Part shown: positions 51,896-62,786 of the stretch, one piece after another
How the letters are laid out: every line of letters begins with the position of its first letter
How positions within the stretch are numbered: position 1 is the first letter of the stretch
Source: an uncultured Anaerolineae bacterium
GTDB lineage: Bacteria; Chloroflexota; Anaerolineae; Aggregatilineales; Phototrophicaceae
Length of the DNA: 64,000 nt
Reading direction: 5' to 3'
Assembly: GCA_937922795.1 (NCBI GenBank)
Contig: CALAJK010000061.1
Span: 1-64,000 of the forward strand
Made by a program: the position numbers and the translations under genes
The notes under the pieces: model-generated
The model's input: only the letters and a program-made list of their open reading frames with translations
Told to the model about the DNA's origin: nothing
The model's database searches: none

Positions 51896-53191
51896 TCACG
51901 GCCGAGCGATGCGCGAGCGCTTGAGGGCTTCTTCGGCCTCGTCCAGCAGGCGCGCCATCATCTTAATCACGGCGGCGGTCTCGCCCGTCACCAGCCGTAT
52001 CCGCCCGCGGTAAGCCTCGCGCAGATCGTAGAGCATCGTCCAGGGGTTGTCGTCTTTGAGCGTGACGAACAGATTGACGACCAACCCGCCCATCACCAGC
52101 GGCAGGTAAGCGTAGACTAGATCCGGCTCGCCTTCGCCGGCCAGCCAAGTGAGCAGCCGATTGGCATAGCTGACGCGTTCGGCGTAATCGCCCAAGTCTT
52201 CGTTCACTTTGGGCTCGATGACGCTGAAGCCGAGGATGATGGCGTCGAACAGGGCCGCCTCAAACAGGTAGTGCACCGCCAGCTCGCCGCGGTCGGCCAG
52301 CTCCAAATCGGGATCATGAGCCAGCACTTGGCACAAGGTCTGGAACCAGCGGCTCTCCTGCACGTCGAAGCCCGGCTCCAGCTCCAAACCCTCATCCAGC
52401 GTGTAGGTGATCATCTTGGCGATGGCCAGCGCCTCGCCGGGGTGCAGCGGGATGCCGCGGTCGGCGAAGCGCTCCTCAACCGCGTGGGTGATCGGCCGCA
52501 GGACGGCGCTGCGCGTCAGGCCAGCCGATATGCGGATGGCATCCGGGATGCGCGCGCGCACCAGCTCGCGTTCTTCCTCCATTTCCTCGTGCGTCCACAG
52601 GCTCTCATAGCGCGCCTGTAGGTTCTGCTGGGACAGCGGGACGCGCTTGGGCGCGATGTCGAAGTAGGTGGTCATGATCTCCGCCGACTTGTTCCAGGTG
52701 TGGGCGGAAAACTCGACCTCGCGCAGCGCCTGGAGCTTGAAGGCCGAGATGCTCAGCACCGTGGGCGGGGCGCCGCCGGTCGGCGGGCGCACCGCGCGGC
52801 CTTCGGCGGGCGTCCGGTAGCGCACTGCCACCCGCACCGGGAAGCCCGTGCCGGGCTGCGTGGGCGGCAGCGGGATGACCGGCATGCGCAGCACGCCGAC
52901 CTCGCCAGGCCGCAGCCCCAGCGTCACCATCTTCTTGGGCGTGTCCATCACCACCGGCCCGCCCTTGCGATCCTGCGTCGGCAGTTGGATGCCCACCTTC
53001 AACTGCATGTTCTGATCCACCATGTTCTGCAGGATGAGGATGATCTCCACCGGCTGGTTGATATAAGTGCGGCGCGGGAACACGCCTAGCGCGCACTGAA
53101 GTTTGTCCATGCTGATGCGCGTGCCGCCGGTGATAGCGCCCAGCACATCGGGGTACATCGGTTCCAGCCGCTGCGTGGGATCTCGCGTCAT
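51896..53191 (-). CDS. Hypothetical protein, member A of a paralogous pair
   Basis: YPDVLGAITGGTRISMDKLQCALGVFPRRTYINQPVEIILILQN..., co-linear with the upstream gene over full length. Confidence 0.8.
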   Translation of the reverse strand: MTRDPTQRLEPMYPDVLGAITGGTRISMDKLQCALGVFPRRTYINQPVEIILILQNMVDQNMQLKVGIQLPTQDRKGGPVVMDTPKKMVTLGLRPGEVGVLRMPVIPLPPTQPGTGFPVRVAVRYRTPAEGRAVRPPTGGAPPTVLSISAFKLQALREVEFSAHTWNKSAEIMTTYFDIAPKRVPLSQQNLQARYESLWTHEEMEEERELVRARIPDAIRISAGLTRSAVLRPITHAVEERFADRGIPLHPGEALAIAKMITYTLDEGLELEPGFDVQESRWFQTLCQVLAHDPDLELADRGELAVHYLFEAALFDAIILGFSVIEPKVNEDLGDYAERVSYANRLLTWLAGEGEPDLVYAYLPLVMGGLVVNLFVTLKDDNPWTMLYDLREAYRGRIRLVTGETAAVIKMMARLLDEAEEALKRSRIARP

Positions 53192-54546
53192 GGGCGATAC
53201 CCATATTTCTGGAGCGCTTGGTCTAGGACCCGCTCCGCCAGTTCGAACACCAGTTCGTTGTCCTCGCTGCGCTCGTCGGCGCGTTCCTGCAGCACGGTCT
53301 CCATCTCGACCAGCCGGTCGCCCACCCTCTCGTCTGGGGCGATGACGCGGTCGGCGAAGATGATGCCGCCGATCACCAGCGGCAGGTAGACGTCGGAGAA
53401 CGTCAGCGGCTGGCTGGGCTTGACGATCAGGCTGATCAGCCGCTCGCTGTACTCGCGCATGTCATCCTCTGTGCCCAGGTCAGCGCCGGTGACGGCGATG
53501 ATGGCGCGGAACGCCAGGCGCACAGCGTCGCGCAGCAGCTCATCGAACAGCGGCCCGACCAGCATCTGGATCGGACGGTCAGCGGCGTGTTCGTCGCGCT
53601 CCAGGGCACGCAGGAACGCCCGGCACCAGCTCGGCAGGGCGATGGAGCCGTCCGCCTGCGGCACGCCGCCGCGCTTTTTCAACAGGAGCGCCACGTTCAA
53701 CTGGTCATCGTTTGGGTGATCATAGGCTTCAGCGGTCGGCGACGCCATCTCCAACACGGTCACCAGCAGTTTGGCGATGTACAGCGCCTCGACCGGGCGC
53801 AGCGCGTAGCCAGCGCCGCCGATGCGCCGCTGCACCGCATTGAGGATCGGCGTGAACAATTTGTGCCGTTTCAACAGCGGCAGCACCCGCGTCAGCAGCA
53901 CATCGCTGTGGCGCTCCAGCAGCAGACGTTCGTCGCGGTAGTAGTCCAGCATCGTCCACAGGCTGTGCCAACCGGGTTTGAAATCGGGGATCGCGCCCAC
54001 CTGCGACCCCATCACCACAAACGGCGCTTCGATGATCATCCCGATCAGCCCACGCCGGGCGACCGAGAACGTCAGCCGTTTGAGTTCGAGCAGATGCGCC
54101 TGGATCTCATCCGATACGTGTTCGACGGCGAAAGGCGCGCCGCCCTCCGGCAGGCGCACACGTCTAGGCTTCGAGACCGGCTTGGCCTCTACTGCCATGC
54201 CCAGCTTGTAGCCGTCGCCGACGGCGGTATCCGGCAGGCAGGCCAGCGGCAGCGAGACATAACCGACTTCCGCCGCCCGCAGCCCGACGACCAGCCGCTC
54301 GGTCTTGCTGACAAAGCGCCGCCGCTGCCTGCGCGCGTCCAGCTCTGGCATCTGCAGCGTAGCGATCAGGTCTACCGCCACATCGGACGCATTCTGGATC
54401 AGCAGGATCGCTTCAAACGGATGTCCGGCGCGCACCACCCGCGGTCGTACCGCCAGCGCGAGCTGGGTGACGCCGGCGTTCAGACGCGGTCCGCCGGTGA
54501 TGTAGCCGAGCACATCGGGATAGTTGAGGGCGTTTGTGTCCGGCAT
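53188..54546 (-). CDS. Hypothetical protein, member B of a paralogous pair
   Basis: YPDVLGYITGGPRLNAGVTQLALAVRPRVVRAGHPFEAILLIQN...; 4-bp overlap with the downstream paralogue. Confidence 0.8.
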   Translation of the reverse strand: MPDTNALNYPDVLGYITGGPRLNAGVTQLALAVRPRVVRAGHPFEAILLIQNASDVAVDLIATLQMPELDARRQRRRFVSKTERLVVGLRAAEVGYVSLPLACLPDTAVGDGYKLGMAVEAKPVSKPRRVRLPEGGAPFAVEHVSDEIQAHLLELKRLTFSVARRGLIGMIIEAPFVVMGSQVGAIPDFKPGWHSLWTMLDYYRDERLLLERHSDVLLTRVLPLLKRHKLFTPILNAVQRRIGGAGYALRPVEALYIAKLLVTVLEMASPTAEAYDHPNDDQLNVALLLKKRGGVPQADGSIALPSWCRAFLRALERDEHAADRPIQMLVGPLFDELLRDAVRLAFRAIIAVTGADLGTEDDMREYSERLISLIVKPSQPLTFSDVYLPLVIGGIIFADRVIAPDERVGDRLVEMETVLQERADERSEDNELVFELAERVLDQALQKYGYRP

Positions 54547-54679
54547 CAGCCGCTTTCTCCTCTACGTTAGGCTGGCCATGCGCCATCAGTGTTTGTTCAC
54601 ATTCATTATACGTTGGAACTAACGCCGCGCGAATGTCTGGAAGCGGACGGGGCGAGGGTGGTCTGTGCGCTGCCCCTGT

Positions 54680-59852: not shown

Positions 59853-62003
59853 TTATCGCTGACGCTGGAGATACGCCTCCGGAACATCGTCCAGGAACCG
59901 CGATGGTTGTCCCCGCGAACAGGTGAGGTACAGCAGGTCACGCGCGCGCGTCATCGCCACGTACAGCCGCTGCCTTTCTCGCGTCAGATAATCATCGAGT
60001 TCAGCGCCATTGAGGGTTAAGTCATCTTTCGGCACCAGAGTGCCATCTGTCACGCCGACTACAAAGACCACTTTGAACTCAAGCCCTTTCGATGAGTCGA
60101 ACGTGGTGTGTTTGGCTGCCGGGCCGAAGTAGGTGCTGGCATCTTTGGTCAGTTCCTGGAGTTCAATGACGCCGGACAGCAGCTCAACGATGAGCTTCTG
60201 ATACGGATCGCGCCAGCGGTAGAGCAGCGCAAAATCGCCGTTGGCGTAATGGTGAGTTTGCTTGAGCCGGTTGATCTCGTGGCAGATCCAGCCTATCTCG
60301 GCTTCAGGCGTGTCGAAGCGATGCAGAATCGGCACCGGCCCAGATCGAACGGAATAAACCGGCTCTTCTGGCGCGCTGCCGATGGTATCTTCCAAGTCGT
60401 CGAATTTGTGATTTTTGACCATGGCATGAGCAGCGCGAAGAATTTGCTGGGTGTTGCGATAATTCCGCTTCAAGAGCGCGCTGCGGCCTGTCACATCAAT
60501 GCCTAATCTGGCCAAAGAGTAGCCGCCAGGATACAGGCGCTGTAAACCATCGCCGACCAGAAAAAGGTCATTCGGCCCCGGTTCGACGATCTGCCGAATG
60601 AGCCGTATGACCGCCTCTGACAAATCCTGGATCTCATCCACGACGGCGGATACATAACGGTGTTCGGGTCGGGCACCGTTTTCGAGCATTTCCAAAGTCA
60701 TGAGGATCCAATCATCGAAATCGCAGCAGTTCTGCGCTGCCAATGCTTGCTGATAAATTCGATACACCTCAAAGACGGCTTGGCGCTCACGTTCTTTGAG
60801 GGCAGTTCCTCGCCCAGAGCGGTCAAGCTGAAGATACGCATCAAGGGTGCAGATGGCGCGCCCTTTAATCGCATACTGAATTTCATCCTTGAAGAAGTCT
60901 ACTGGCCGCTCCCACAACACGAAGTCAGGGTAGCGCGGTTTGGCGCGGTCAATTGCTTCGGATAACAATCGCTTCGGGTTATCAGCGATTTCAAGCAGAC
61001 GTTTTCTGTTTTTGAGGAAATTGCGGCACCATTGATGAATAGTGACACATTCAATGACATCCAGTTCCGGCGCCTGTGGCCCAGCTAGCTGTTCAAGCAG
61101 ATAATTCACAATGCCGGGCAACCGATTGCCATAGGTCAAGAACAGCACCTTGCCGTCCGCCTGGTCGCGAATGATCTGTTTGGCGAGGTGATAGGCGCGA
61201 TGAATGGCGACTACGGTTTTGCCGGAACCAGCCACGCCCCGAATCCGCGCCGGCCCTTTGATGCGGCGCTGAGCGAGATCGCGCTGGAACGGTGCCAGGA
61301 ACAGCATCCATTCAGCCATAGAGCCGTTGAGCGCACGCTTGAACTCATCGCTGTCCACAAACTGATACAGATCTTCACCACCCTGGTGACGGTTGAGGCT
61401 CTGACTCAGTTTGTCGTCGGTCACCCGGGGACGGTCAACGAGATCCAGCGCGATTTCGAGAAGTCGATCGAACACTTCTTCGGGAAGTGCGTCTTCAAAT
61501 GCTGCTAGTTGGTTGGCATCTTCCAGGGCACGGATATTGGGAAGATAATCTTCCGGCACGCCAAGCGCCAGCAGGTCGGCGTCGCGTTGGGCGATGAACA
61601 GCTTGCCGGGTTTGGGTTTTGCCCCGAACAGGCCGAACGGCCCCGGTGCGCCGGTAGGTTTCGCTCCCACTTGCAGGATGTCAGCAATTTTCACCACGCC
61701 ATCCTCTAATGTGAACGTCTGGCGTGCAGCCCGTCGATAGGCTTCGTCATGATTGGCTATCAGGCAGAAAACAATATGGTTGGGTTTGATGTGTTTGTAG
61801 ATGATCCGGTACTTTTGATCCACACGACAGGAATAAACTCCATCCTCCGCCTGCCTGACTTTTTCAGGATGCAGTTCCCGCGCCCAGGGATCTTCGATGA
61901 GGCGGTCAACGGCTGCTAGTGCGCGCGGAAGCACCGCATGAGGCAAACTGCGCATATCCGCAAAGAATTCTTTGGCCATGACAGGTTGATACTTGAAACT
62001 CAT
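59853..62003 (-). CDS. UvrD/Rep-like superfamily I helicase with N-terminal RelE/ParE-like domain
   Basis: N-term FKYQPVMAKEFFADMRSLPHAVLPRALAAVDRLIEDPWARELHPEKV...YSCRVDQKYRIIYKHIKPNHIVFCLIANHDEAYRRA; Walker A IRGVAGSGKTVVAIHRA; Walker B VVDEIQD; motif V SKGLEFKVVFVVGV; motif VI RERQRLYVAMTRARDLLYL. Confidence 0.9.
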   Translation of the reverse strand: MSFKYQPVMAKEFFADMRSLPHAVLPRALAAVDRLIEDPWARELHPEKVRQAEDGVYSCRVDQKYRIIYKHIKPNHIVFCLIANHDEAYRRAARQTFTLEDGVVKIADILQVGAKPTGAPGPFGLFGAKPKPGKLFIAQRDADLLALGVPEDYLPNIRALEDANQLAAFEDALPEEVFDRLLEIALDLVDRPRVTDDKLSQSLNRHQGGEDLYQFVDSDEFKRALNGSMAEWMLFLAPFQRDLAQRRIKGPARIRGVAGSGKTVVAIHRAYHLAKQIIRDQADGKVLFLTYGNRLPGIVNYLLEQLAGPQAPELDVIECVTIHQWCRNFLKNRKRLLEIADNPKRLLSEAIDRAKPRYPDFVLWERPVDFFKDEIQYAIKGRAICTLDAYLQLDRSGRGTALKERERQAVFEVYRIYQQALAAQNCCDFDDWILMTLEMLENGARPEHRYVSAVVDEIQDLSEAVIRLIRQIVEPGPNDLFLVGDGLQRLYPGGYSLARLGIDVTGRSALLKRNYRNTQQILRAAHAMVKNHKFDDLEDTIGSAPEEPVYSVRSGPVPILHRFDTPEAEIGWICHEINRLKQTHHYANGDFALLYRWRDPYQKLIVELLSGVIELQELTKDASTYFGPAAKHTTFDSSKGLEFKVVFVVGVTDGTLVPKDDLTLNGAELDDYLTRERQRLYVAMTRARDLLYLTCSRGQPSRFLDDVPEAYLQRQR

Positions 62004-62228
62004 CGTGCACTTTCCCGACTGAATAGTTGTGACGATCTGCATTAACTAATTGTATGGTCATTAACGCATACGCAACCCTTAAATCATCCCCCCCAACCCG
62101 CCCAATCTGCTATAATCGCTGCCGTCGCAGCGCGTCGCTGCCCGTCGCCCGGCGGGCGGTGATTTTGATGCAGCCAGGGCAGAACCTCAACTGCCCGGTT
62201 CCCGCCTGGGGAAAGGACGGCCACACCC

Positions 62229-62786
62229 GTGTCAGGACAGTCAAAATCGTATCTGTCGCCCCGCCTGGAAGCGCGTCCGGTCGGGGATAAGGGGTTGTAC
62301 GGCGTGTTCGCCCGCGAGCCGGTCGCCGCCGGCGAGCTGCTGGCAATGTGGGCTGGCGAGCTGGTCAGCGCCGCTGATCTGCCGGCTGTGCCGCCGCTGG
62401 TGCGCAGCCGCAGCGTCCAGGTCGAAGAGGAGCTGTATTTAGTGCCGACAGTCACCGAACCGGCCGATTTTTTCAATCACTCCTGCCGCCCGAACGCCGG
62501 CCTCAGCGGCCAGATCGCCTTGGTAGCGCTGCGCGACATCGCGCCCGGCGAGGAGGTCTGCTACGACTACGCCATGTCGGACGGCAGTCCGTACGACGAG
62601 TTCGTCTGCCGCTGCGGTCAGCCGGAATGCCGGGGACGCGTCACCGGCGACGACTGGCGCCGGCCGGAACTTCAAGCGCGCTACCGTGGCTACTTTTCCC
62701 CCTATCTCCAGCGCCGCATCGACCGGCTGGCGGTTCAGCTCGCGGCCAACGGCGTGCATGCAGCGGCCGGCGCCGCTTCCGAATAG
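62229..62786 (+). CDS. SET domain-containing protein (lysine methyltransferase-like)
   Basis: GLYGVFAREPVAAGELLAMWAGELVS, DFFNHSCRPNAGLSGQIALVALRDIAPGEEVCYDYAMSDG, post-SET CRCGQPECRG. Confidence 0.93.
   Translation: MSGQSKSYLSPRLEARPVGDKGLYGVFAREPVAAGELLAMWAGELVSAADLPAVPPLVRSRSVQVEEELYLVPTVTEPADFFNHSCRPNAGLSGQIALVALRDIAPGEEVCYDYAMSDGSPYDEFVCRCGQPECRGRVTGDDWRRPELQARYRGYFSPYLQRRIDRLAVQLAANGVHAAAGAASE

Follow-up and report, generated by a model that had tools for sequence, protein, structure and literature searches.

Paired two-domain proteins of Aggregatilineales as a candidate accessory family of ClpC

The A/B gene pair and the proteins it is predicted to encode

The stretch of DNA that we analyzed (the window; 64,000 nucleotides) comes from an uncultured bacterium of the order Aggregatilineales (Chloroflexota, class Anaerolineae) and contains two adjacent genes, A and B, on its minus strand. 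Gene A (53188..54546, minus strand; 452 aa) is the upstream paralogue and gene B (51896..53191, minus strand; 431 aa) is the downstream one. Both were defined by their open reading frames, by their places in the A and B clades of a phylogenetic tree, and by AlphaFold2 (AF2) models, and for A also by its alignment to B. The two genes share a 4-bp ATGA stop/start overlap (53188..53191, minus strand), through which they are likely to be translationally coupled. A sigma-70-like -10 element, TATAAT, was read by eye upstream of A (54605..54610, minus strand) and is the predicted promoter of that gene. A and B align end to end in BLASTP (28% identity and 44% positives over 440 columns; 138 bits; E=1e-40). 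An earlier note on this DNA had described two overlapping minus-strand genes encoding full-length, diverged paralogues with a set of shared motifs, and in these respects its description was accurate. Within the genus, B has full-length relatives at 57-75% identity, with more distant relatives across the order, and such relatives show that A and B are real protein genes. No N-terminal signal sequence or membrane helix was seen by eye in either protein.

Tight A/B overlaps are present in many genomes of family f1, and junctions of -4, -1 or -17 bp were found in ten loci (L021, L038-L041, L043, L044, L057, L114, L118). An apparent A-B fusion of 881 aa (L033/L089) was rejected as an overlong open reading frame around B, with A in a different frame.

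AF2 models were computed from alignments of 53 and 54 relatives and gave a pLDDT of 90.0 and a pTM of 0.63 for A, and a pLDDT of 92.1 and a pTM of 0.86 for B. These confident models support the earlier suggestion of an Ig-like N-terminal part followed by a helical C-terminal part. In A, the predicted Ig-like beta domain covers residues ~9-197 (53956..54522, minus strand) and starts with YPDVLGYITGG, and the all-helical domain covers residues ~199-447 (53206..53952, minus strand). The corresponding domains of B are residues ~13-199 (52595..53155, minus strand), starting with YPDVLGAITGG, and residues ~201-425 (51917..52591, minus strand). The beta domains were assigned from the models together with partial Foldseek matches, and the helical domains from the secondary structure of the models. 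A version of B that consists of the N-terminal domain only is encoded at two loci, L028 (207 aa) and L096 (206 aa).

Foldseek searches against the PDB gave convincing matches to beta domains only (MG, MSP, PapD-like and CARDB; E 2e-5 to 1e-2). There was no PDB match to the whole fold of A or B, the whole-model TM-score normalized to the query being ≤0.22, and the helical domain had no match of its own in the Foldseek PDB lists. A viral structure library yielded nothing at E≤1e-3 for either model. The columns that are invariant in the family (P14, G18, Q55, P71, R135, W199, E253, W282, P364 and L365 in B numbering) are mostly P, G, Q, R, W, E and L, with no catalytic Cys/His set. They do not suggest an active site, in agreement with the earlier failure to recognize a catalytic motif.

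Elsewhere in the window, a UvrD/REP helicase gene (59853-62042, minus strand) encodes ~110 initial residues that resemble, by eye, a RelE/ParE-type fold, possibly a toxin-like domain fused to the helicase. A small open reading frame (62229-62786, plus strand) appears by eye to encode a SET-domain-like protein, which is unusual in a bacterium.

Family membership, distribution and duplication

Searches for a named family bore out the earlier note, which could assign neither protein to one. A and B gave nothing significant in Pfam, NCBIfam or PADLOC, 35 aligned relatives gave nothing significant in Pfam, and neither phmmer with B nor a search with the family profile found anything among PDB sequences. 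There was no Pfam match to MecA (PF05389) or ClpS (PF02617) in A, B or the 35 relatives, and none at the gathering score to the Transglutaminase C-terminal, CARDB or MG Ig-like families; a weak match to Transglut_C (E 0.03) occurred in one family member only. Viral contigs and plasmids gave no relatives or no convincing match. On this sequence evidence, A and B belong to an undescribed family of two-domain proteins in Anaerolineae, defined by a full-length profile match, an N-terminal YPD.LG and a C-terminal YLPL..GG, all of which are found in A and B.

The family profile matched 96 of the 154 genomes of Aggregatilineales, representing 43 of 61 genera, and gave no match in the other 58. A sample of the phylum had suggested that the family is restricted to this order, a view overturned by a class-wide profile search, which recovered full-length relatives, each a single copy, from further families and orders of Anaerolineae. 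These homologues (e.g., L128 and L135) belong to the same full-length family, with profile E values of 1e-48 to 1e-68, and residues 13-415 of B align with L128 at 6e-27 (phmmer). They differ from A and B in having no A/B split, and in often being flanked by a gene for a CPBP/Rce1-like protease rather than by clpC. In two samples of the phylum, with 301 and 399 genomes, a single chance match was all that turned up outside the window's own genome, and this was so even though one of the searches used a profile that included outgroup rows. Two weak matches (each E about 5e-5 over 45 aa) were set aside: that in G252 arises by chance from YLPLVLS in an open reading frame unrelated to the family, and that in G638 covers the same short part of the profile. 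Among the genomes sampled, the family is found only in the class Anaerolineae (Chloroflexota). One contig labelled Bacteroidetes (L071; JAPUDW010000268.1) carries family genes that are nearly identical to, and nest within, those of the window's genus; it is probably a mislabelled metagenome-assembled genome (MAG).

In the tree, the sequences from Aggregatilineales divide into an A clade and a B clade (SH-aLRT 100). When the tree was rooted on the single-copy relatives from other orders, A (98), B (97) and the outgroup (100) each formed one clade, and because of this the tree indicates that a single duplication at the base of Aggregatilineales, before its families diverged, gave rise to the A and B clades. 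The ancient tandem duplication proposed in the earlier note is thereby upheld. The tree also contains a further duplication of A in and around the window's genus.

The same note had inferred an obligate heteromeric complex and had looked to conserved pairing of the two genes as support. The order of the genes is conserved, A preceding B on the same strand in all fetched loci that have both, but many genomes keep only one of the two. Among genomes with a reported completeness of 92-100%, six have B only (G020, G025, G038, G051, G364, G407) and ten have A only (G021, G028, G029, G043, G048, G053, G054, G390-G392), and in other orders the gene is single. Because A-only and B-only genomes are common, mutual dependence of A and B is not general, and an obligate complex is not supported as a rule for the family. 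An A/B heteromer is possible in those genera that keep the coupled pair.

Genomic neighborhoods of the family

The conserved neighbor of the family in Aggregatilineales is clpC. In 14 of 40 loci that were fetched irrespective of their neighbors, the last family gene is followed within 2 kb by clpC on the same strand. The same arrangement was found in 21 fetched Aggregatilineales loci in total, from families f1, f3, f4, f6 and f8, a count that takes in later loci, some of which were chosen for an already known nearby clpC. Five further linked genomes (G006, G369, G374, G397, G403) were identified by coordinates in an order-wide search for clpC. The linkage occurs both in A-only loci (L020, L034, L036) and in B-only loci (L022, L106, L113). 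The neighboring Clp protein is of the ClpC type, its best PDB matches being B. subtilis ClpC/MecB, with which it aligns as a single unbroken segment. In several genomes the cluster is extended by a gene for an S1-domain protein and then a second clpC, as in the order A, B, clpC, S1-protein gene, clpC2 at L021 and L051.

Most family loci are not adjacent to clpC. Recurrent linkage to a Clp unfoldase gene, which is supportive of membership in the ClpC adaptor class though not strictly defining for it, was seen in the 21 loci and not in the window, whose genome carries clpC on another contig (C85, 46414-48888). The gaps between the family gene and clpC range from ~50 to 1,800 bp, so that the genes may or may not be co-transcribed, a point that we count against an accessory role. 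The earlier note had pointed to a nearby Ser/Thr kinase as a possible partner; that suggestion was dropped because a homologue of this kinase was seen close to the family at a single other locus (L047).

Some loci combine the family with other genes of protein quality control. At L037, the order is SPFH, DnaJ, HtrA, HspR, A, B and, after a gap of 1.8 kb, clpC; at L028, SPFH, DnaJ, HtrA and HspR precede the stand-alone B N-domain. A heat-shock gene context was also found at L019. The HspR assignment scores above the equivalog cut-off of NCBIfam (NF047375; 107.5 vs 105 bits), and those of DnaJ and HtrA are strong NCBIfam family matches that fall below the strict cut-offs. No HAIR-type operator (CTTGAGT-N7-ACTCAAG) with two or fewer mismatches was found anywhere in L037, L028 or L019, and the best sites upstream of family genes had 4-8 mismatches; this phylum may use a different operator sequence. 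The CIRCE element was not found upstream of family genes.

All 31 relatives that were surveyed have ClpP. MecA and ClpS were found in none of the 31, in searches whose positive controls matched; for the McsB profile (PF00217), no control genome gave a match. Many Aggregatilineales have ClpC and lack the A/B family, so ClpC does not need it.

Other neighbors were observed in particular lineages. An SDR oxidoreductase gene lies 29-1250 bp upstream on the same strand at eight loci (L042, L047, L049, L051, L020, L022, L019, L106), sometimes accompanied by a B3/4-domain-like gene. In genus g32 (L035, L056), A-only copies adjoin FtsZ, named by eye from its sequence. In genus g28 (L032, L054, L055), A-only copies lie inside a peptidoglycan-recycling-like cluster with NagZ (by eye), beta-lactamase-like and DUF1343-like genes. 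In other orders of Anaerolineae, a gene for a CPBP/Rce1-like intramembrane protease (PF02517) is directly upstream of the single-copy relative in 11 of 20 loci (L130, L133-L138, L140, L144, L146, L147).

A possible role in ClpC-centered protein quality control

Judged from gene context, A and B probably assist in the folding or degradation of proteins. Our tentative reading, drawn from the same context, is that the family assists protein quality control in Aggregatilineales without being enzymatic itself, most likely as an adaptor or regulator of ClpC. Confidence in this reading is limited because other lineages show other neighbors, namely the CPBP protease, FtsZ and peptidoglycan recycling. 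Further points against it are that the window's own pair and most family loci do not adjoin clpC, that many Aggregatilineales with ClpC do without the family, and that neither a HAIR nor a CIRCE element was found upstream. The ClpC unfoldases studied so far are kept inactive and are activated by partner proteins, as set out in two papers (PMC5699869, PMC12583610). Under the proposed mechanism, A and B would be cytosolic, non-enzymatic two-domain proteins that serve ClpC-centered quality control. The Ig-like N-terminal domain would bind a client or partner, the helical C-terminal domain would bind the unfoldase or oligomerize, and together the two would supply ClpC(P) with substrates or control its activity in the manner of an adaptor. 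We infer ClpC binding, this division of labor between the domains, and hetero-oligomerization of A with B in the coupled-pair genera. In its fullest form the proposal is doubtful: an undescribed family of Ig-like plus helical ClpC adaptors or regulators, acting as an A/B hetero-oligomer that arose after one duplication and replacing MecA and ClpS in Aggregatilineales.

A somewhat unlikely alternative is that A and B are induced by stress and serve as holdase-type chaperones or scaffolds, encoded in a proteostasis neighborhood but not binding ClpC, the beta-sandwich binding unfolded clients and the helical part forming oligomers. The heat-shock gene context at L037, L028 and L019, the adjacency of the stand-alone B N-domain to HspR, and the partial matches of the beta-sandwich to PapD-like, MSP and MG domains all speak for such a role. 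Against it, neither dnaK nor groEL but clpC is the most recurrent neighbor, the strong conservation of the N-terminal YPD.LG motif points to a specific partner, and no long disordered tails or similar hallmark of holdases were seen.

It is also unlikely, though to be weighed, that clpC and the family are linked by conserved synteny and share no function, and that the family acts elsewhere, for example in envelope biology with the CPBP protease or cell-wall genes. The neighbors of the single-copy relatives and of the A-only copies in g32 and g28 point in that direction, as does the window pair, which has no clpC neighbor. Synteny of whole segments is itself improbable, since five families of the order, and both A-only and B-only loci, have the link to clpC while most other neighbors are not conserved, and CPBP-like genes were not found in any of the fetched Aggregatilineales loci. 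Very unlikely is an obligate A+B heteromer unrelated to proteostasis and possibly regulated by the nearby kinase, which would fit the ATGA overlap, the fixed A-before-B order and the retention in many genomes of both copies from one ancient duplication, but is contradicted by the highly complete A-only and B-only genomes, the single-copy relatives elsewhere, and the near absence of the kinase from other loci.

If A and B are accessories of ClpC, the family offers a concrete, testable candidate for control of ClpC in these Chloroflexota, in whose 31 surveyed members MecA and ClpS were not found. The candidate is lineage-specific, its predicted fold as a whole is unmatched, and its genes are found near clpC and, at some loci, near dnaJ, htrA and hspR as well.

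Two sets of known proteins bear comparison with A and B. The likeness to Ig-like beta-sandwich domains (MG of alpha-2-macroglobulin/complement, MSP, PapD-like and CARDB) is local, confined to the N-terminal domain, with identities of ~10-15%, and A and B differ from these proteins in the low query-normalized TM-score given above and in their additional, unmatched helical domain. From the ClpC adaptors MecA/YpbH, McsB and ClpS they differ in their size of ~430-450 aa, their Ig-like plus helical architecture, their lack of similarity to Pfam, NCBIfam or PDB families, and in a connection to ClpC that comes from gene context. What A and B would share with these adaptors is the character of a non-unfoldase partner linked to the gene for a ClpC-type AAA+ protein, in organisms where ClpP is present.
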